From a virus, in the IMG/VR virus record IMGVR_UViG_3300035698_000247, positions 1 to 20,599 of that record: 20,599 bases of DNA; one strand, given 5' to 3'. A program made the position numbers and the translations under genes. Of the stretch, positions 4,076 through 17,934 are shown piece by piece; positions within the stretch are counted from its first letter, which is position 1; each line of letters opens with the position of its first letter. A model generated the notes under the pieces. That model ran no database searches. It saw only the letters and a program-made list of their open reading frames with translations, and was not told where the DNA came from.

Positions 4076-5893
4076 TTATGGCGTAACGACGCCGAAAGAT
4101 TTAAACACCGCAGTAGAGCCCGCGACGCCTGCAGTAGTACATACATACCCAATGAATCCCGAGGATACGGGAGCCTCTGAGTAACTTATATCTTTTACCT
4201 TGAAAGTCCCGGTGGTAGGCGCGAAGTTTTCGAAGACTACGTCCCTCGTACCTATTGTTTCTCTCTTAACGATAGCGGAGTTAACAATCTCGGCGTTATT
4301 ATTAGACCACTTAACCTTAGTTTGAAGGGTTGAACCCGACCCGCCGATATTACCATCTTGACCACGGAAGTTATTATCCTCGACGGTAATATCTTCCGGG
4401 CTATTATTAGTACGTAGCGACGTGGTGAAACCTGTACGCATTTTATTACCGCTAACCCGTGTACCTCTGTCGCCTAGGTCCAGCGCAATACCGAGCGTAG
4501 CGGTACCATACGTAACCAGTTCATTATCGGTTATAGAATGCCCGTCTTGCTGCACATTATCTACGGTGTTAAAACCATTAATACACGTTGTAGCGGAGTT
4601 AACCAAGCCTATGTAGTTCCCGCTGATAACTTGGTTAACGGATAGTGCACTCCAGGCTATACCCGCCTTAGCGCAATGGTCGAATATATTATTGTGGATA
4701 TAGTTGTGTGAAGACCCCACTAAGAATGCAGCGTGTCCAAAGTTATCTATAAGATTATTCGATATACACCAACCTTCGGCAGTGCCTAAAATCTTAATAC
4801 CCGCGTCGTCACTAACCGCCCCGTCCCCACCCATAGTGTTATACGAGACAAAGTTGTTAACGGAAAGCCCGTTCGATAGAATACCTAGCGCGCAACGATT
4901 CATAAAACAGCCTAGAATCTTTGTAGCCCAGGTCCATTCGACGGATACGGCGGTCTTAAAACCGTCTATAAACACGTTTCTAAATTCATTGTAGAACGGG
5001 CGGTTACCGGTGTCGCCTTTAAGGTATATTCCTACGTACGTGTTAGGTGTAACGGGGTGTAATACGTTACTAAATAGTGTTAAGTTTTCAATTAGCAAAC
5101 CGCCAACGCCTACCGCGCTAGTTTCAAAAGCGGAGTTACCGAGGCAAATAATTGTACCAGCTCTACTACTATCTCCACAAATATGCTGTCCTTGGTAGAT
5201 AGTTAACACGGAGCTGGTTAAAAACGCCCCGTTTCCGACGTCGCCCTTTGGTATGTACACCGCTAGCTTTTGCTTCACGAAGCTGTAGTCTAGCGCTGCT
5301 TGTAAAGCTGTCGTACTGTCTCCACTGCCGTTATTTCTAGCCCCGAATGTCGTAACGTCTAGCGCACCATGTATGACGATAGCTGCTACATAGTCCGTAC
5401 CGCCGCCGACGTAATGGTCTCCGAATCCGTCCGGTATAGCCCCATAATCGGCAATTGTTAATATCACATAGAAAGCGCCGCCCTTCGGTGTTTCCGAGGC
5501 TGCCGCCCACCCAGAATAGTACGCCTGGGTCTGTACGGTTGCTTGTGCTGCTGCCAGTTCCGCAAAGGAGACGGCCGCCGCCACCGTAGTACCGGCCACC
5601 ATGCTAACGACCGAGTCGAATACGGCCGCCGCTGCGATACTAGGGACTCTTTTAAGTGCTTCTAGGTACTGAGACGCCCCTACTTCGTCCGGCGCCCCCG
5701 TTGGTACAATCCCAGCGGTCACTAATAGCGACTGCTGGAACCCTTCGATATCCCTTAGTTCTGCCGCTACACGCGGCGTACCTGTTAGGTCTCCGGGGAC
5801 CGCGTCGTCTCGGGCGCTGCCATAGGGGTAAGCCGCGTTAGGGGCGTTAACCTGGCCGTTATAATCTACCAGTGTCGATGGGTTGTTAGCCAT
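4076..5893 (-). CDS. Tail fibre or tailspike with pectate-lyase-like beta-helix
   Basis: Probable receptor-binding protein at the tail tip. Residues 1-175 form an N-terminal region (VDYNGQVNAPNAAYPYGSARDD..., Ala-rich at 85-132) that should attach to the baseplate. From about 178 (VTTFGARNNGSGDSTTALQAA) it matches the start of pectate-lyase-3/GH-type right-handed beta-helices. Repeated Asn-rich rungs follow (NNLIDNF, HNYIHNNIFDHC, ISGNYIG, ITDNELV, VSGNKMR, VEDNNFRG) to about residue 530. It ends with a short cap, GYVCTTAGVAGSTAVFKSFG, like those closing other beta-helix surface proteins. 605 residues. Such proteins often depolymerise host capsule or O-antigen, but catalytic residues cannot be assigned by eye. 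It follows the gp48-like gene, where Mu-like phages place fibres. SD AGGAGA. Confidence 0.85.
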   Translation of the reverse strand: MANNPSTLVDYNGQVNAPNAAYPYGSARDDAVPGDLTGTPRVAAELRDIEGFQQSLLVTAGIVPTGAPDEVGASQYLEALKRVPSIAAAAVFDSVVSMVAGTTVAAAVSFAELAAAQATVQTQAYYSGWAAASETPKGGAFYVILTIADYGAIPDGFGDHYVGGGTDYVAAIVIHGALDVTTFGARNNGSGDSTTALQAALDYSFVKQKLAVYIPKGDVGNGAFLTSSVLTIYQGQHICGDSSRAGTIICLGNSAFETSAVGVGGLLIENLTLFSNVLHPVTPNTYVGIYLKGDTGNRPFYNEFRNVFIDGFKTAVSVEWTWATKILGCFMNRCALGILSNGLSVNNFVSYNTMGGDGAVSDDAGIKILGTAEGWCISNNLIDNFGHAAFLVGSSHNYIHNNIFDHCAKAGIAWSALSVNQVISGNYIGLVNSATTCINGFNTVDNVQQDGHSITDNELVTYGTATLGIALDLGDRGTRVSGNKMRTGFTTSLRTNNSPEDITVEDNNFRGQDGNIGGSGSTLQTKVKWSNNNAEIVNSAIVKRETIGTRDVVFENFAPTTGTFKVKDISYSEAPVSSGFIGYVCTTAGVAGSTAVFKSFGVVTP

Positions 5894-5904
5894 TTTACTA
5901 TCTC

Positions 5905-6723
5905 CTAAGAATATTTAACTAATATACCTAACCACTGTTGGGCCGGGCAAATTTTGAGACAAAGCGCCTCGAATTCATCTTTTCTAAGCGCCTCTACATT
6001 TGCCAAAGAGCCGAAAACAGCGCCACCTATATAGAGGAAATAGGGCCATTTAGCGGGGTCCGCCGGTATAATATAGTTCTTTTGTATTTTCTGTAATGAT
6101 GAATAATTACCACACGTAGCGGCTGGATTACCACACGTAGTGGCGGGATTACCACAGGTTACAGCGTATTTCGGTACGGTCTGTAATATCTTGTTAACTA
6201 GCGGATATCCTAGCGGCTGTAGTGTAGAGCCTGCCGTAGCGGCTGGATTACCACACGTAGTGGCGGGATTACCACAGGTTACTTGAAATTTCGTTATAAT
6301 CTGCGACGGTCTTAGCCATAATAACGGGTTACGCGGCGTTACGCATTGTTTCACGCCTGGCGCTGGTTGTGTTCCTTCGACCCACCACGAATGTAAGTAC
6401 ACGTCGAAGCCGTTAGCTTGTAGCGTATCCTGTATGTATCGGGGGCCCTGACCGCCTAATGTTTTCCATGTGGCGTCTAATCGGTCGCGCCGCTGTTGCT
6501 CTGTTAACGATGTATTTTTCGATAGTGCGAAATTATTTTCCCAGGCGTCTAACTCCCTGGTAGTTTGCGGGAATATGTCCAGCCAGATATCATCGAAGAA
6601 CGTCTTAACGTCCCCCCCAACGCCCGAAAGCCCTTCGAAAAACTGTCGGAGCTTTTTATCTACCGTAATACGCCATGCTCTAGCGTTGGGTAGTAGGTGC
6701 TTAAATATCCTTAAGAACATCAT
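5905..6723 (-). CDS. Baseplate/tail protein, Mu gp48-like (DUF2313/YmfQ type), with Cys-Gly-Asn repeats
   Basis: Probable baseplate wedge component linking the J protein to fibres. The N-terminal part (LLPNARAWRI..., LRQFFEGLSG, DIFPQTTRELDAWE, TEQQRRDRLDATWKTLGGQGPRYIQDTL) is the family hallmark, and the position after baseplate J agrees. Residues 149-163 and 189-203 are near-identical TCGNPATTCGNPAAT blocks exactly 40 residues apart, with Cys150, 157, 190, 197 and 204, built from a seven-residue unit. The C-terminus (DEFEALCLKICPAQQWLGILVKYS) is also typical of the family. 272 residues, somewhat longer than Mu gp48, apparently because of the duplicated segment. Start is the first ATG of ATGATG, overlapping the stop of the J gene as ATGA. 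Confidence 0.87.
   Translation of the reverse strand: MMFLRIFKHLLPNARAWRITVDKKLRQFFEGLSGVGGDVKTFFDDIWLDIFPQTTRELDAWENNFALSKNTSLTEQQRRDRLDATWKTLGGQGPRYIQDTLQANGFDVYLHSWWVEGTQPAPGVKQCVTPRNPLLWLRPSQIITKFQVTCGNPATTCGNPAATAGSTLQPLGYPLVNKILQTVPKYAVTCGNPATTCGNPAATCGNYSSLQKIQKNYIIPADPAKWPYFLYIGGAVFGSLANVEALRKDEFEALCLKICPAQQWLGILVKYS
6115..6282 (-). repeat. Two identical 48-bp direct repeats with 120-bp period inside the gp48-like gene
   Basis: 6115-6162 and 6235-6282 are identical base for base and are separated by exactly 120 bases (40 codons), so the frame is kept. Each copy contains two 21-bp units encoding CGNPA(T/A)T; a partial fifth unit lies just to the left (about 6103-6114, CGN). Identity at third codon positions suggests recent duplication or ongoing recombination between copies. 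Confidence 0.92.
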
Positions 6724-7916
6724 AGGAAAGTTACCGTAGCCGCTTTGGCTTTCTCACCCACTCCCAGGGCGTACGTGTCTATATTTATGGTGGACTGTTC
6801 TACTATTACGCCCGTAAATATACCGCCGGATGCGCTAACGATATCGTCGACTACACCAGCTACCCCGCTGTTAGTTATGCGGTCCCTTCTTGGTAATACG
6901 GATAGACCCGCGATAAAAGGTCCCCTGTCGAGGAAATATTCTTCTACGGCGCCCGTTATCGTCGCTTGTACTTGCGCCAGGTTATCTACTTGTAGCCCTG
7001 TAACTTTAACGTCGAATCCCGTACGTGTGATAGGGAACGAATTAGCCAGGGCGTTAGCGGGTCGCCTACTGGCTAGACCGTTCTGGTCCAACTCAATAGA
7101 ATCTAATACCGCCTGCAGTTGCGCCAACGTTGGTACCCCGTCCGGGTCTCCGGAGCTTTCCACCGTGGCCTCGACGTATACGTCGACCTGTCCGGGGCAA
7201 TCGCTGGTATAAGGGTATACGTTAATAACCCCGGCTACTTCTTCGCCCCATATCTCATAATCAGCATACGCCCCACCCTGGGGTCTTTTCTGGAATCTGT
7301 CTATAACTCGCTGGCGGTACGCTTCTGTACTTTCAGCATTCGCGCCGGTAACGGTCTGGATAACCACAACGGCGTTACGCGATACGTTAGCCAGGGGGTT
7401 AGCGAAGGAAATAATAGCGCCGGGGTCTAAGTTCCCTATAGCGCCGGAACCGCCCCCGCCTGCCTGGTCCGAAGCTGCCCTTACGGTCGCCTGGACGACT
7501 GAGGCGTCTAGAGCTACCGCGCCTATCGTAATGTAGGTAACCCCGTTATCGGTGCCTACTAATTGGGTCCCGGAGGGCAATACGCCGACCTGGGTATCGA
7601 CGGTAATATCGATAAGTAATTCGGCGCTAGTGGCTGGTACCGGGTCACCTACCCCGATAAGTCGGCCCCACTCGGTAAGCGGTGTTACTACTTCGCCGTT
7701 AACGGTAGTTTCTTTATCGCTGGCAGTTTGTACGAATACCTGCCGGGACATAAACCCGCCGTACTTATACAAAAGCACGAATACGCCGGCTACGGCCTTC
7801 GCTAAGACCCTTAAAAACGATTTAGGTAGTAGTGGTATAGTTTGGTTAAGAGACGCTTCTAGCTGCGCGATAATATTGTCGCTTATTTCTTTAGTTGTTG
7901 GGGTCTGTAGACTCAT
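6720..7916 (-). CDS. Baseplate J-like protein (Mu gp47-like)
   Basis: Baseplate wedge protein that helps couple the hub to the sheath. 398 residues. Features of the Baseplate_J family: N-terminal helical region, GVLPSGTQLVGTDNGVTYIT segment, glycine-rich DQAGGGGSGAIGNLDPG loop, NAESTEAYRQRVIDRFQKRPQGGAYADYEIWG, and a C-terminal GVAGVVDDIVSASGG region. The frame extends to 7931, but the ATG at 7916 (MSLQTPTTKEI) is preferred since it overlaps the upstream stop as ATGA. Order gp46-gp47-gp48 is the Mu baseplate order. Confidence 0.92.
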   Translation of the reverse strand: MSLQTPTTKEISDNIIAQLEASLNQTIPLLPKSFLRVLAKAVAGVFVLLYKYGGFMSRQVFVQTASDKETTVNGEVVTPLTEWGRLIGVGDPVPATSAELLIDITVDTQVGVLPSGTQLVGTDNGVTYITIGAVALDASVVQATVRAASDQAGGGGSGAIGNLDPGAIISFANPLANVSRNAVVVIQTVTGANAESTEAYRQRVIDRFQKRPQGGAYADYEIWGEEVAGVINVYPYTSDCPGQVDVYVEATVESSGDPDGVPTLAQLQAVLDSIELDQNGLASRRPANALANSFPITRTGFDVKVTGLQVDNLAQVQATITGAVEEYFLDRGPFIAGLSVLPRRDRITNSGVAGVVDDIVSASGGIFTGVIVEQSTINIDTYALGVGEKAKAATVTFL

Positions 7917-8359
7917 GCGCCGGCCTTCCAATTCTCTACGAACTCGAAGCTAGATTCTTCGCCCTGGGCCTCGATATCGATTGTTAGTTTGATTCTGTTT
8001 ATACCTGGGATACTGGCGACCACGTTAACCGAGGACGCTACTTTATTCGTAATAAACCAGGATAAATCCCTATTCGCCGCGTCTTCTATGCGACGTAAAT
8101 TTCCGCTAGTAGCGGTTAACGCTTGTAATAAATTCTGGGTTTCGCTGCGGTATTCCCTGGCCGGGTCCACCTCGTCGATATTGGCCCACCAGTTCGCCTG
8201 GTTGTCGGCTCTACCGTCGTCGTCTTCATTGCCGCCAAACAACGACAAATAGGCGGACGTTTCTAGCCCGCCGCCCATAGTAACGATACCACCTTCGACT
8301 GTAATATTACCGTCGTCGTCTGTCTGGAATAGGCTAACGTCGCCTTGTTGTTCTGCCAT
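7913..8359 (-). CDS. Mu gp46-like baseplate protein
   Basis: 148 residues with the GP46 signature: an N-terminal beta part (DVSLFQTDDDGNITVEGG), LSLFGGNEDDDGRADNQANWWAN, and EVDPAREYRSETQNLLQ, followed by a C-terminal DIEAQGEESSFEFVENW. The family resembles T4 gp25-type wedge proteins in position, between spike (gp45) and J (gp47), and is thought to contact the sheath. The start forms a one-base TAATG overlap with the gp45-like gene and the end an ATGA overlap with gp47. No anomalies seen. Confidence 0.88.
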   Translation of the reverse strand: MAEQQGDVSLFQTDDDGNITVEGGIVTMGGGLETSAYLSLFGGNEDDDGRADNQANWWANIDEVDPAREYRSETQNLLQALTATSGNLRRIEDAANRDLSWFITNKVASSVNVVASIPGINRIKLTIDIEAQGEESSFEFVENWKAGA

Positions 8360-8997: not shown

Positions 8998-10220
8998 GGT
9001 AAAGCCCCCGGGATTTTCCCGCTAAATGCGCCTGGTACTACTAAGTTAAGGGTAGCGGTTTCCGTCGCCCTGTCCCGGCTAAACTCAATAGACCGGATAA
9101 TAAATTCGTATTCTTTGTATATCATAGCGTCGGGGGCTAGTAATTTTATAGACGTATTCGGGTCCCATAGTGTACCGTTCGGGTCTCGCCAGGTAGCTAC
9201 GCGAACCGAGTAGGAAGCCATATTCCCGAACATACGCCCCGACTTAGCTTCTACGGCTGATTTAACGTCAGCGTCCAGTGTATCGGGTGCGTTGAAAGTT
9301 AACGGCCTGGTAACGCCTAATAGGCGCGGATTCTTAACGGTAAACTGGGACCCTGCCAGGCCGACGACTACCGGTTCGATTCCGGTTATATGGCTGTAGT
9401 ATTCCTGGGGGCTAAAGAACGGCGTAACCGATAATACGGGCGCTACCCCCTGCTGCAGTCTTGCGACCGGTTGGCCGCCTTCCGAAGACTGTAGGAATAC
9501 CAATTTACCGCGCGACGAACTGGATATTATTAAGTTACGCTGTTTCGCTAACTCGGTTAAAAACGCTAAAACTTTCTTACCGGGCTCGATGGCTACGCGT
9601 TCAAATACTGCGCCCTGGTCTGCTTTAAAATCCACACTTACGCCGAAGGGCGCGGCCAATGCGGTAGCTATGTCGCGTAGGCCTTGGTTATCGAACTCTA
9701 GCGGGAAAGAGCTAGCCGGCGGAGTACAATCGTTAAGAACACCCGGCAAGGAATAACCGCTTACGGCTATTATTTTCTGCGCGTTTTCTAAAACTGGGCT
9801 TACGGCGACCATGGTACCAGTGAATAGCGGGGCCCCGCCGACCGTAATAGTAACGCTTTTAAATGAGAACGGGCGGAACGTCTGCCTAAAGCCCGGCGCT
9901 TCGGAGTCGAACGGCGCACCGAATTCTACCGTATCCACGGTATCGATAGCGCGCGTAATCCGTACCTCGCCCCAAAATCGAAAGCGTTTACCGTCGATTA
10001 GGACAGCGACCTCGTCGTCTGTACTGCTATCTGCGGACTGTTGTACGTTCTGGGGGGCGTCTGGTAGAACTGGAACAGTTAACGTCGTACCGGCTGTTAG
10101 CGGTTGGGCTACGCCGGGGTTCGCTCGGGCTATAAGGTCCGCTTCTTTCTCGGTACCGTATTTCTTACGCGATATACTTTCGAAAGTATCGCCGGTAATT
10201 ACGCTATACGTAGTAGACAA
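8985..10220 (-). CDS. Baseplate hub, Mu gp44/P2 gpD-like, with N-terminal LysM domain
   Basis: Trimeric hub that holds the spike and caps the tube. Residues 3-50 (YSVITGDTFESISRKKYG...ANPGVAQPLTAGTTLTVP) form a LysM domain. From about residue 70 the late-control-D/gp44 fold follows (VLIDGKRFRFWGEVRITRAIDTVDTVEFGAP, PFSFKSVTITVGGAPLFTG, and the C-terminal YEFIIRSIEFSRDRATETATLNLVVP). 411 residues against roughly 380 for Mu gp44, the extra length being the LysM. The start is TTG: AAGGGG (10233-10228) lies seven bases upstream and no in-frame ATG precedes the LysM. It overlaps the gp43-like gene by 17 bases. In P2-type tails the LysM protein is a separate tail gene. Confidence 0.9.
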   Translation of the reverse strand: MSTTYSVITGDTFESISRKKYGTEKEADLIARANPGVAQPLTAGTTLTVPVLPDAPQNVQQSADSSTDDEVAVLIDGKRFRFWGEVRITRAIDTVDTVEFGAPFDSEAPGFRQTFRPFSFKSVTITVGGAPLFTGTMVAVSPVLENAQKIIAVSGYSLPGVLNDCTPPASSFPLEFDNQGLRDIATALAAPFGVSVDFKADQGAVFERVAIEPGKKVLAFLTELAKQRNLIISSSSRGKLVFLQSSEGGQPVARLQQGVAPVLSVTPFFSPQEYYSHITGIEPVVVGLAGSQFTVKNPRLLGVTRPLTFNAPDTLDADVKSAVEAKSGRMFGNMASYSVRVATWRDPNGTLWDPNTSIKLLAPDAMIYKEYEFIIRSIEFSRDRATETATLNLVVPGAFSGKIPGALPWDE

Positions 10221-11463
10221 TTTCGCGCCCCTTCGGTACTTCCAATATTTCAGAGCCGCTTAGATTATTCGAACTAATAAAAAAGTCGAGTTGGTCGTCT
10301 ACGCTTCCGTAGAACTCCGCCACCAGGTCGATAATAGTTCGGTTACGGGTAAGAATTATGCTTCGCTCCTGCTTCAAGGTAAACGATATTTCTACCAGAA
10401 AACCGGCGGTAAGTGCTACGGCTTCCTGCAGTTGTTGGTACGAAGCCCCCGTATCTACTTCGCCTAACGATTGGAAATTCGCGTCCCGCCAGTTTGTTAC
10501 GTCGTCTAGCTGGGTAAGTATTAGTTCCGCCGCCGCCAGCGCTTCGGACTTGGTAGTAAACTGATTATTTACCACGGAAACCACGGAGCCGGTAACGTAC
10601 GTAGACGCGTAAAGGTCTTTAGTGTGGAATCCGTTAGAACTGCTCGCGTCCAGGCTAGGCGTAACGACCGCGTCGTCCCCCGAGATAATAGAGTCCGCCA
10701 GATTTTTATACGCGTCTAGCCGGGCCGTTATGCTGGTTAGCGCTCTCGCAGGGGCCTGCAACATGATAGCGGTTTGAAAGGCTAAAGTTTGAAAGGCTAA
10801 AGTAAGCGGCTGGGCGATTAGTATATCGATGCCCTGATTAATGGAGTCGACTATCGCGTCGAATTGTTTTTGTACGTCTGCCTGGGTGTCTGCCACGGTC
10901 TGCAGTACGCTAGAAGCGGTGCCTAATAATACCTGGTAATCGTTCTTGAACGCCGCGGCGTCGACCGCACTATCCAGGCTAGTAACTTCCTCGAATTCTG
11001 CGGCCACGGCGTCGTTATACTCGTCTATCGCAAGTAACACCGCGCTAGCTGGGTCCGCCTGGGCTGCAGGGTAAATTAACCCTATGGTCTCCCATAAAGT
11101 AATCTCTAATACTGCCTGGTTTGCGCCTGTCTTCAAATCGTCGCGGCGGGTAATAGTGCCGAACGGTACGACGTCCACGGTTCCGTAAATCGGGTGTTCT
11201 AACTTACCGGTACCGCGCTCCAATAATGCGGCCTCGAATGCGTCGGCCTCCTGGTCGTAATCATTGCCCCAAAAGAAAACCCTAAGCGGGTACTTTCTAC
11301 CGGAGTGGCCCAGGTCTTGGACGAACGTACCGTCCGCGTCCGGGAATTCGAAGCCGGTAGTTTTCTTATCTACTTTTTTACTTACATTTTCATACCCGAA
11401 GGTAAGTCGAGCGCCCGAGGGGGGCGTATATGCCGCTTCGCGTATTCTGCCATTCCATGCCAT
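10204..11463 (-). CDS. Mu gp43-like DNA circulation/baseplate protein (DNA_circ_N)
   Basis: The N-terminal 110 residues match the DNA_circ_N type: MAWNGRIREAAYTPPSGARL, FEFPDADGTFVQDLGHSGRKYPLRVFFWG, AFEAALLERGTGKLEHPIYGTVDVVPFG. The name comes from an old DNA-circularisation proposal; in Mu-like tails the protein is a hub-proximal baseplate component. The middle and C-terminus are helical and end LEVPKGREIVYYV, a LysM-adjacent style tail. 419 residues from the ATG at 11463, which overlaps the preceding stop as TAATG; an upstream TTG (11469) is less likely. Contains an exact 15-bp tandem duplication (LAFQT twice). Confidence 0.87.
   Translation of the reverse strand: MAWNGRIREAAYTPPSGARLTFGYENVSKKVDKKTTGFEFPDADGTFVQDLGHSGRKYPLRVFFWGNDYDQEADAFEAALLERGTGKLEHPIYGTVDVVPFGTITRRDDLKTGANQAVLEITLWETIGLIYPAAQADPASAVLLAIDEYNDAVAAEFEEVTSLDSAVDAAAFKNDYQVLLGTASSVLQTVADTQADVQKQFDAIVDSINQGIDILIAQPLTLAFQTLAFQTAIMLQAPARALTSITARLDAYKNLADSIISGDDAVVTPSLDASSSNGFHTKDLYASTYVTGSVVSVVNNQFTTKSEALAAAELILTQLDDVTNWRDANFQSLGEVDTGASYQQLQEAVALTAGFLVEISFTLKQERSIILTRNRTIIDLVAEFYGSVDDQLDFFISSNNLSGSEILEVPKGREIVYYV
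10772..10801 (-). repeat. Exact 15-bp tandem duplication in the gp43-like gene
   Basis: Plus-strand unit GTTTGAAAGGCTAAA occurs twice back to back, encoding LAFQT-LAFQT in the central helical part of the protein. The frame is preserved. Confidence 0.93.
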
Positions 11464-11810
11464 TAGCAAATTACCTTAAGTTTTATTTCCGTCGAGTACC
11501 CTTCGCCGACTATTACCTCCGGCTCTAGGTCTGCGGCGGTTACGTAGCTTACCTTGGGGGAGTACGCGGGCTGTATAGGCTTAAGGGCCAACATACCGAA
11601 CTTAACGCGTACAGTGTCATTCAAGAACGAAACGTCGTCGGTGCTGCTGTCTATTTTAGTGATACCGCACGGCATGGGGGGCCCGCAAACCGCGACAGTA
11701 ACGACCGTAGCCCCTAGCGCGGTCAAATCCACGGGGGCACCCAGGCTATCGACTATATTGAAAACGGTTTCGTTACCCGAGTTTTTTGCCGCAGTTATAG
11801 GTATCAGCAT
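11463..11810 (-). CDS. Tail-region protein, 115 aa, unknown
   Basis: Starts MLIPITAAKNSGNETVFNIV and looks like an all-beta domain with alternating hydrophobic residues (VDLTALGATVVTVAVCG, DTVRVKFGMLAL, EGYSTEIKLKVIC). Three cysteines, no signal peptide and no membrane segment. It starts five bases after the stop of a 48-residue gene and its stop overlaps the gp43-like start as TAATG, so it belongs to the tail operon. This position, between tape measure and gp43, is normally empty in Mu, so a minor tail component is a reasonable guess only. Confidence 0.72.
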   Translation of the reverse strand: MLIPITAAKNSGNETVFNIVDSLGAPVDLTALGATVVTVAVCGPPMPCGITKIDSSTDDVSFLNDTVRVKFGMLALKPIQPAYSPKVSYVTAADLEPEVIVGEGYSTEIKLKVIC

Positions 11811-16654: not shown

Positions 16655-17329
16655 TTATGGCGCTAAATAGTCGTAATCAGCTTCGAGGACGATTTCGCCG
16701 TCTTCTGCTCTAATTACGTCTACCGATAAAAGTTCTAACGTCACCGGTTCGACCTGTGGCGAGAACTCGTTAAATACTACACGAAGGGCTAATCTAGCGC
16801 CTACTATTTGTTGCATCTGGCGGCCGTCTAATTGCGGCTGGAAGACCGTAACCGACTGGGGCCAGCGTTGCCATACTAGGCCCTGCAGACCTAAATACGT
16901 GTATTCTGCGGCCATTAGGATATTACGTATTAATCGTAACGCTTTCTGGACCTCGAACGCGGCTTCTCTATCTCCCGGAATATGTCCGGTACCGCCGTCG
17001 TCTCTGCTAAGGCCGTAGCCGTAGCAATCAATATTATATACAGTTTCGGACGCCTGGCGTTCCGATATATTGCTCTTACCCGGTGCGAAGTTAGAATTAT
17101 CATACCAGATATTTACGATAGGGCTTCGGTCGGTCTGCTCGTTAAGGAGTTGTTCCCAGGGGTTCGACCTCTCCGTAAAAATTCTAAGTTTCCAGTCGTC
17201 CGGGTTTGGCTTGCCCGCCGTCGTAGCTAATGCTATCTGGCTGGCTACTTCCGTGGTAAGTATCGCGGCTATCTGGTCGCGGATAACTTCGAAGGAGTCC
17301 TGTTTATCAATCAATGTCGATATGGCCAT
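16655..17329 (-). CDS. Tail terminator/completion-like protein (Mu gp37 position)
   Basis: 224 residues: MAISTLIDKQDSFEVIRDQI, WKLRIFTERSNPWEQLLNEQ, SPIVNIWYDNSNF, ETVYNIDCYGYGLSRDDGGTGHIPGDREAAFEVQKALRLIRNILM, and LARVVFNEFSPQ-like C-terminal strands. This resembles a protein I recall directly before the sheath gene in lambda-head/Mu-tail phages, and the alpha/beta layout fits terminators that cap the tube and join it to the connector. The start lies 19 bases inside the HNH gene. The functional call leans on position and is moderately sure. Confidence 0.7.
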   Translation of the reverse strand: MAISTLIDKQDSFEVIRDQIAAILTTEVASQIALATTAGKPNPDDWKLRIFTERSNPWEQLLNEQTDRSPIVNIWYDNSNFAPGKSNISERQASETVYNIDCYGYGLSRDDGGTGHIPGDREAAFEVQKALRLIRNILMAAEYTYLGLQGLVWQRWPQSVTVFQPQLDGRQMQQIVGARLALRVVFNEFSPQVEPVTLELLSVDVIRAEDGEIVLEADYDYLAP

Positions 17330-17934
17330 GTAACCACCCTAAAAGTATTACTCTTTGCTAGGTTCTCGTTAGCTGTAAGTACCTGTAAATTCCAAGAGGC
17401 ATGTAAACCGCTAACTAAAGAGCCCTGTAACGGGACTATGTGGTCGACGTGGTGTTCAATACCGGTTTCTTTAGTTAAGAGTCTAGCTTCTTCGTAAATA
17501 GCTAAAATATCGTTATTATCCTGCTCCGTTAACCATTCGGGCTTACGTTGTATTACGGCGCTAAGTCTATTCGAAGCCCAAAAATTTACTAAGGCGCGGT
17601 TTTCTTCTCTGTACTTCGGTCCGTATTTCTTCTGGTATTCGCTGTTTTTAATCGGGTCCCTGGACGCTTGTTCTTTTTTATAAAGCCCTTTCCCGTTAAC
17701 CTTCCTATAATTCGTTTTATAGTTTTTCAACTGGTCTTTATTTTCTGCGGCGTACGATTTCTGGTACTCCGCTATAGCTTCTTTATTTTCGATTACCGAA
17801 TTAAGGCGGCAAGCCTCACACCTACCATTAGCTGTACGTCTTAAATCCACATGGTTATTTTTACACGGTTTACCAGTGAAATAAAACTTATCTTTAGTGC
17901 TTAAAGCTGTCTTTCTAGTCGCTGGTAAACTCAT
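17311..17934 (-). CDS. Free-standing HNH endonuclease (probable homing endonuclease)
   Basis: 207 residues in three parts. First, a zinc-binding Cys-His-Cys-Cys element, C24-x3-H28-x10-C39-x2-C42 (KPCKNNHVDLRRTANGRCEAC). Second, a Lys/Tyr/Asn-rich linker at 50-112 with repeated EYQKxY-like units, probably DNA-contacting. Third, an HNH core, H161-H-V-D-H165-I-V-P-L then W-N182-L-Q-V-L and N189/N191 (ANENLAKSN). Such genes encode site-specific DNA nucleases that spread by cutting genomes lacking them. It is wedged between two head-tail joining genes, ATGA-overlapping the upstream one and overlapping the downstream one by 19 bases. It looks more AT-rich than its neighbours, supporting later arrival. 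Not needed for morphogenesis. Confidence 0.9.
   Translation of the reverse strand: MSLPATRKTALSTKDKFYFTGKPCKNNHVDLRRTANGRCEACRLNSVIENKEAIAEYQKSYAAENKDQLKNYKTNYRKVNGKGLYKKEQASRDPIKNSEYQKKYGPKYREENRALVNFWASNRLSAVIQRKPEWLTEQDNNDILAIYEEARLLTKETGIEHHVDHIVPLQGSLVSGLHASWNLQVLTANENLAKSNTFRVVTWPYRH

Follow-up and report, generated by a model that had tools for sequence, protein, structure and literature searches.

The closest described systems are the baseplates of phages Mu, E217 and Pa193. In the passages that deal with fibre attachment, one wedge subunit per wedge is described as meeting the fibre trimer via one loop (PMC11915804, PMC10329688, PMC11042391). The attachment loop of E217 gp45 (residues 76-123) fits the interface formed by the trimer of fibre N-termini (PMC10329688), a 3:1 interface is described for Pa193 (PMC11042391), and the fibre docking loop of Mu gp48 comprises residues 133-155 (PMC11915804). 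The baseplate of Milano is described as disulfide-linked, and that of Pam3 likewise, as cited in the E217 paper (PMC10329688). For every simple baseplate it matters by what means a single wedge subunit can hold a fibre of three chains, and how spikes are swapped without loss of the fit.

The stretch of DNA analysed here, called the window, is a 20,599-nt viral sequence (IMG/VR record IMGVR_UViG_3300035698_000247, positions 1 to 20,599). Its minus strand carries a tail module encoding capsid, sheath, tape measure, hub, gp46-like protein, baseplate J, gp48-like wedge protein, spike and endolysin. As shown in Table 1, the wedge gene is located between the J and spike genes, as for Mu gp48-like proteins. 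The initial annotation of the wedge protein as gp48-like was supported by a match to PF10076 (E 1.8e-8), though its 34.8 bits were just below the curated cut-off of 37.4 bits; PF10076 was matched at E ≤ 0.01 by 99 of the 100 alignment members. The protein was aligned to Mu gp48 by hhalign over 107 columns (prob 94, E 1.4e-7) and matched phrog_4920 (E 9e-62) and phrog_203, a baseplate wedge family (E 7.4e-14). Apart from its blocks, described below, it is an ordinary gp48-like protein. Mu gp48 belongs to the same family by profile and stands in the same gene order (gp47-gp48-fibre), but it lacks most of the insert of about 110 residues that carries the blocks. In the alignment the Mu docking loop falls near window residues 233-254, past the blocks, so the idea that the blocks are that loop was rejected. 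Elsewhere in the window, an ORF at 17311-17934 among the structural genes ends by eye in an HNH-endonuclease-like C-terminus (HHVDHIVPL), and 2.1 copies of a 15-bp tandem repeat, GTTTGAAAGGCTAAA, are found at 10772-10803 within the ORF 10204-11469 (minus strand).

Table 1. Positions of the wedge protein, its blocks and the neighbouring tail genes in the window.
Feature	Position	Strand	Remarks
Baseplate J (gp47-like), wedge partner upstream	6720..7931	-	PF04865 E 1.6e-31
Mu gp48-like baseplate wedge protein (BW3 type), 272 aa, with both blocks	5905..6723	-	PF10076, phrog_4920, phrog_203
Block A	6229..6282	-	Residues 148-165, VTCGNPATTCGNPAATAG, three heptads
Conserved strand between blocks, GYPLVNKI	6187..6210	-	Residues 172-179; strand in the model, 172-175
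Block B	6109..6162	-	Residues 188-205, VTCGNPATTCGNPAATCG, three heptads
C-terminal gp48 domain, residues 207-272, between blocks and spike gene; tracks block type far less closely than the anchor	5908..6105	-	
Tail spike, pectate-lyase-like, 605 aa, presumed plug	4076..5893	-	PF12708 E 6.2e-9; anchor HMM E 3.6e-35, its seeds coming from the same family of loci
Spike anchor N-part, residues 1-40, co-varies with block type	5774..5893	-	Residue 30 (Asp) is the strongest partner position

Two identical 48-nt stretches (6115-6162 and 6235-6282, minus strand; 120 nt from start to start) lie in the wedge gene, and both encode VTCGNPATTCGNPAAT. The five CGN units that had been annotated (Cys 150, 157, 190, 197 and 204), their seven-residue Cys spacing within a block and the 48-bp/120-bp layout were all confirmed. 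The heptads, however, number six, five of them with Cys: CGNPATT, CGNPAAT and AGS in block A, and CGNPATT, CGNPAAT and CGN in block B, so that the third unit of the first block is AGS and not CGN. Gly at three positions spaced by seven was found at 3 sites in the window protein, which was matched in 2 of 5000 residue shuffles. Sixteen of the 17 codons for identical amino acids in A and B were identical as codons too; the product of the match probabilities is 1.2e-8 under the window's own codon usage, with codons assumed independent. Between the blocks, L175, V176 and N177 were invariant and G172 and Y173 nearly invariant in 31 sequences. A 5208-nt contig (L001) with the same two blocks differs from the window by one mismatch and is thus practically the same phage.

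Four scans of viral contigs (three of them giving the best 80 of 133, of 223 and of 212 relatives) and 12 named phages yielded 247 loci, many contigs being fetched twice, with at least 116 distinct gp48-like proteins among them. A genome scan with the single window protein as query gave no match; with the alignment as query it gave four MAG contigs, which were left out of the counts. In the 113 proteins with a recognisable linker, automatic detection found both blocks in 90, A only in 17, B only in 4 and neither in 2; the 17 include the truncated L099 as well as L234, L242 and L248, in which two blocks precede the linker. The number of whole blocks per protein ranges from 0 to 3, three being found in L051 and L052. 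Most relatives have three heptads per block; block A of L055 has two, and L015, L071, L227 and L176 are irregular. The initial annotation had taken the segment for an expandable, spacer-like repeat. A tandem array growing by slippage was rejected, because the heptad number is nearly fixed and mainly whole blocks come and go, while the segment between wedge and fibre is as variable in sequence as had been suggested. Invariance of copy number and sequence, which the annotation had named as speaking against itself, was thus found for the heptad number, nearly, and not for the sequence, which varies and is matched to the spike.

Among 31 sequences, the nearly invariant columns were Gly 151, 158, 191 and 198, not Cys. 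The core residue, Cys in the window, is D, A, L or M throughout some proteins; S takes this place in part of other proteins, and F in the DUF2612 family described below. In the two distant relatives examined, one Flavobacterium phage (FCL-2) and one Cellulophaga phage (phi38:2), three copies of a six-residue QHG unit (QHGGGT type) stand at the site of block A. Two loci of this kind, L249 and L250 (Flavobacterium and Cellulophaga), each encode two anchor-like fibres, and a further QHG/PHG stretch is found at the N-terminus of their gp48. Shewanella phage SppYZU01 and its relatives (phrog_4920) resemble the window in having a full-length homologue, two blocks and one anchored spike; SppYZU01 is of the GE type with V at spike position 30, whereas the window is of the GNP type with D. 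A search for tri-heptads elsewhere in the loci gave 63 looser matches; those with the same core, which alone were listed, were gp48 copies and two stray matches (L121 and L037).

The two blocks of one phage are alike far beyond chance, codons included, which shows that they homogenise. For 69 non-redundant proteins of 89 with two blocks, agreement of A with B at the core was 0.763 within the same protein and 0.367 between genomes; at the other non-Gly positions it was 0.454 against 0.259, and for DNA 0.605 against 0.455 (0 of 5000 permutations in each case). The gap was smaller within the CGE subclass alone (36 proteins; 0.456 against 0.410, DNA 0.586 against 0.536), also with 0 of 5000. Of 718 amino-acid-identical A/B sites, 375 had identical codons, against 314 predicted by the codon usage of each gene itself. 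The longest in-register identical A/B runs were 48 nt (window and L001), 47 nt (L002), 30, 30 and 28 nt, with a median of 8; the comparison between genomes gave 20 nt at most (4692 pairs). A and B of the window share 50 of 54 nt and those of L002 share 52, but block A of the window shares only 36 with block A of L002, indicating that the two lineages were homogenised separately. The first two heptads of one L052 block are identical, and the second of them differs by three bases in L051, a close phage. This difference is possibly a direct view of homogenisation, with either direction of change. The recombination between copies that the initial annotation had postulated is supported.

The gene after gp48 mostly begins with an anchor of about 85 aa, and an anchor HMM was built from the seeds, out of 55, that were at least 85 aa long. 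Distances were compared by partial Mantel correlation for 87 loci kept of 97. Loci lacking downstream sequence or an anchor (L007, L012, L043, L044, L045, L099, L112, L229), six two-anchor gp48 loci and most proteins without block A were left out of the anchor statistics; block B was used for L033 and L091 in the Mantel correlation. L055, L071 and L227, whose blocks are out of register, were left out of both homogenisation and anchor statistics and fit the class rule by eye, and four blocks were registered by hand for both. Block A correlated with the anchor N-part (the first ~40 residues, to the GTP motif) at r 0.705, and at 0.700 when the gp48 N- and C-domains were controlled (0 of 2000 permutations). 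For the anchor C-part the simple correlation was 0.362, falling to -0.02 once the N-part was controlled, and the gp48 N-domain showed 0.121 with the anchor N-part (partial 0.02). The strongest residue pair (excess of 1.10 bits) linked the residue that follows CG to spike residue 30. GE blocks went with I/V at this position in 62 loci, DG with E in 17 and Q in 1, GN with D in 5, A in 4 and E in 2, and GH with D in 4; the rule is not one-to-one, E occurring with DG and with two GN loci, and D with both GN and GH. When GE or not was set against I/V or not, agreement was 95 of 95, which are not 95 independent events because the loci are related. Either label changes 17 times by parsimony on the tree of gp48 N-domains, against a mean of 27.4 and a least value of 21 for label shuffles. 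The closest disjoint pairs with unlike block classes numbered 29, and 28 of them were unlike in anchor class too.

We consider it quite probable, from these sequence comparisons, that each block is a docking loop, a socket on the baseplate wedge for one trimeric tail spike. A block would be built of three near-equal heptads, each made of a core residue, Gly, a specificity residue and four more, and one heptad would probably serve each spike chain; a partner of three chains is the likely reason why there are exactly three. The spike's first ~40 residues, residue 30 above all, would read the residue that follows each Gly, together with the core residue. E217 gp45 and Pa193 gp46, as far as the descriptions cited above go, resemble the proposed blocks in that a loop of a single wedge subunit meets three fibre chains. 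E217 differs in its fibre N-terminus, which looks different, and in its attachment loop, in whose sequence a triple repeat was looked for and none was found. Neither triple repeats in a fibre docking loop nor matching of blocks to anchors was described in the literature listed by the searches (titles, starts of abstracts and, mostly for open-access papers, passages).

The main alternative is that a tail module from inside gp48 to the spike is swapped whole, so that block and anchor agree from neighbourhood alone. The wedge and spike genes are adjacent, the body of the spike is hypervariable (DNA identity of 0.36-0.49 in each of the 18 pairs below), and the gp48 C-domain also correlates with the anchor (r 0.318, partial 0.297, 0 of 2000 permutations). 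Yet the C-domain sits between block and anchor and correlates far less than the block does. Pairs of loci were picked by hand, some loci being shared between pairs. In ten that differ in class, mean DNA identity was 0.43 for block A, 0.67 for the C-domain and 0.51 for the anchor N-part, and in eight of the same class it was 0.71, 0.73 and 0.73. The C-domain thus nearly keeps its identity when both its neighbours switch, which proximity alone explains poorly. The linker between the blocks drops as well (0.55 in class-different and 0.67 in same-class pairs), so the exchanged piece may exceed the blocks. Against exchange by neighbourhood also stand the anchor C-part, which adjoins the N-part and has no residual correlation, and a second wedge family in which anchors adjoin tri-heptad-like blocks too. 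We regard this alternative as unlikely.

The second wedge family was found by an anchor-first search (53 and 364 records), from which four phages were picked among the matches listed that were absent from the gp48 matches, namely Edwardsiella MSW-3, Klebsiella JD001, Pseudoalteromonas H101 and Vibrio 511E55-1. In all four, a DUF2612 protein with tri-heptad-like stretches, e.g. ECGDSSMQCGDPDAQCVG, precedes the anchored fibre; some stretches of JD001 and 511E55-1 are irregular. All 24 related loci, which form one clade with several near-identical members, have GD blocks with Arg at the matching anchor position. Their C-terminal block consists of two GD units and a third core residue, and the first block often has fewer clear units. 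E217 gp45 is a DUF2612 protein too: PF11041 was matched by both E217 gp45 and MSW-3 ORF40, and block 1 of MSW-3 begins at residue 76, where the E217 loop also begins; local alignment of E217 gp45 with the MSW-3 family was insignificant (E 0.35).

If the blocks are sockets, each wedge would bear as many spike trimers, from one to three, as its wedge protein has blocks. The window has a single spike gene and two blocks that are alike, which would then give two copies of the same spike per wedge and twelve per virion. Twelve tail fibres are also given for Pam3, in the E217 paper's sentence on it. The like blocks would be kept alike by recombination and selection because both must fit the same plug, and they would change together with it. 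Kinds of block and of spike were found to correspond. L234, L242 and L248 have one CGE and one SGG block and two spikes with anchors of I/V and E type, and L051 and L052 have CGE and CGNL blocks and two spikes with anchors of V and D type; these five loci are two lineages, and both anchors fit the class rule. L015 has two D-type anchors. Among long or complete records, two blocks occur with one anchored spike in SppYZU01, AeroV_348, SFCi1, Vibrio 367.14, PD0307 and the window, which is a fragment, and one block with one anchored spike in Scuro and CKB-S1. In the partial record of 1.225.O (MGG blocks), one divergent anchor is 6.8 kb away. VP16T, also a partial record, has one block and two anchored fibres, by which a strict rule of as many blocks as spike genes was rejected. 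Among the 12 records examined, at least one anchor was found in all 10 that have blocks, and none in PY6, which has no blocks, or in the Mu piece. In this set blocks and anchors come and go together, and their counts need not match.

The first monomer model of the wedge protein (31 sequences) was poor (mean pLDDT 67). In the second (100 sequences; mean pLDDT 77), the blocks were separate loops, still of low confidence (pLDDT 51-66 by tens), on a well-predicted C-terminal domain. Loops of this kind are what one expects if the blocks fold on contact with a partner, and are no proof of it. The best PDB match was Mu gp48 (9ki1, Foldseek E 1.4e-3), with zero PDB matches at E ≤ 0.001 for either model. 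The solved structures that matched best were those of Mu gp48 and of other chains from baseplate wedges or triplexes (VIA Z 6.4, rmsd 16.2 over 149 residues). In the viral library the second model had four Foldseek matches at the same threshold, the best being a homologue of 62% identity. The weak or absent fold match does not show a new fold.

The model also bears on a second alternative, that A and B pack as layers of one solenoid whose cores must match, the spike following by chance or through a third partner. The high core agreement within a protein and the heptad pattern with its nearly invariant Gly are what such packing would give. However, the model puts the blocks on separate loops, the link to spike residue 30 is unpredicted by packing, and the one-block proteins L029, L080, L090, L096 and L098 obey the same anchor rule (GE with I or V at the spike position). 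Its strict form is also disfavoured by L051, L052, L234, L242 and L248, whose blocks differ in type. We judge it slightly less likely still than exchange by neighbourhood. Least probable of all is what the initial annotation had proposed, a metal-binding or disulfide role of the cysteines at the tail tip; for all the five Cys in the window blocks, Cys being a common core residue and the disulfide-linked baseplates described for Milano and Pam3, core Cys is replaced in some relatives while Gly is kept, and the window spike has its first Cys at residue 239, leaving its anchor without any. In this respect Pam3, which we know by description alone, is unlike our reading of the window blocks.

Docking of spike trimers by the blocks may also be a case of something more general. 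We give an even chance to a transferable three-fold docking code, in which tri-repeat loops of two wedge families, in six- and seven-residue versions, would match trimeric spikes by one-residue pairing, be kept matched by recombination, and state by their number and kind which spikes a virion has and how many of them. The proposed pairing rules are GE with I/V, DG with E, GN with D/A, GH with D and GD with R. If these rules hold, some 20 wedge-protein residues would be enough to tell which spikes a phage can carry and in what number, and metagenomes could supply matched wedge-spike pairs for direct binding assays. That the blocks physically dock the spikes is what we infer from the matching.

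Some relatives of the wedge protein are extended. A long beta-propeller-like insert (YVIDNGDDSLYRSTNSGASF type, by eye) stands before block A of the gp48-like protein in L034 (2986-4614) and L035. In L229 (1480-2400) the protein has a C-terminal extension of "GSGSINLESMVYESLDYVQTGSG" repeats, and there is no anchored fibre in the 871 nt downstream. A C-terminal fusion in L069 (3001-5259) adds ~480 residues that are LamG-like by eye.
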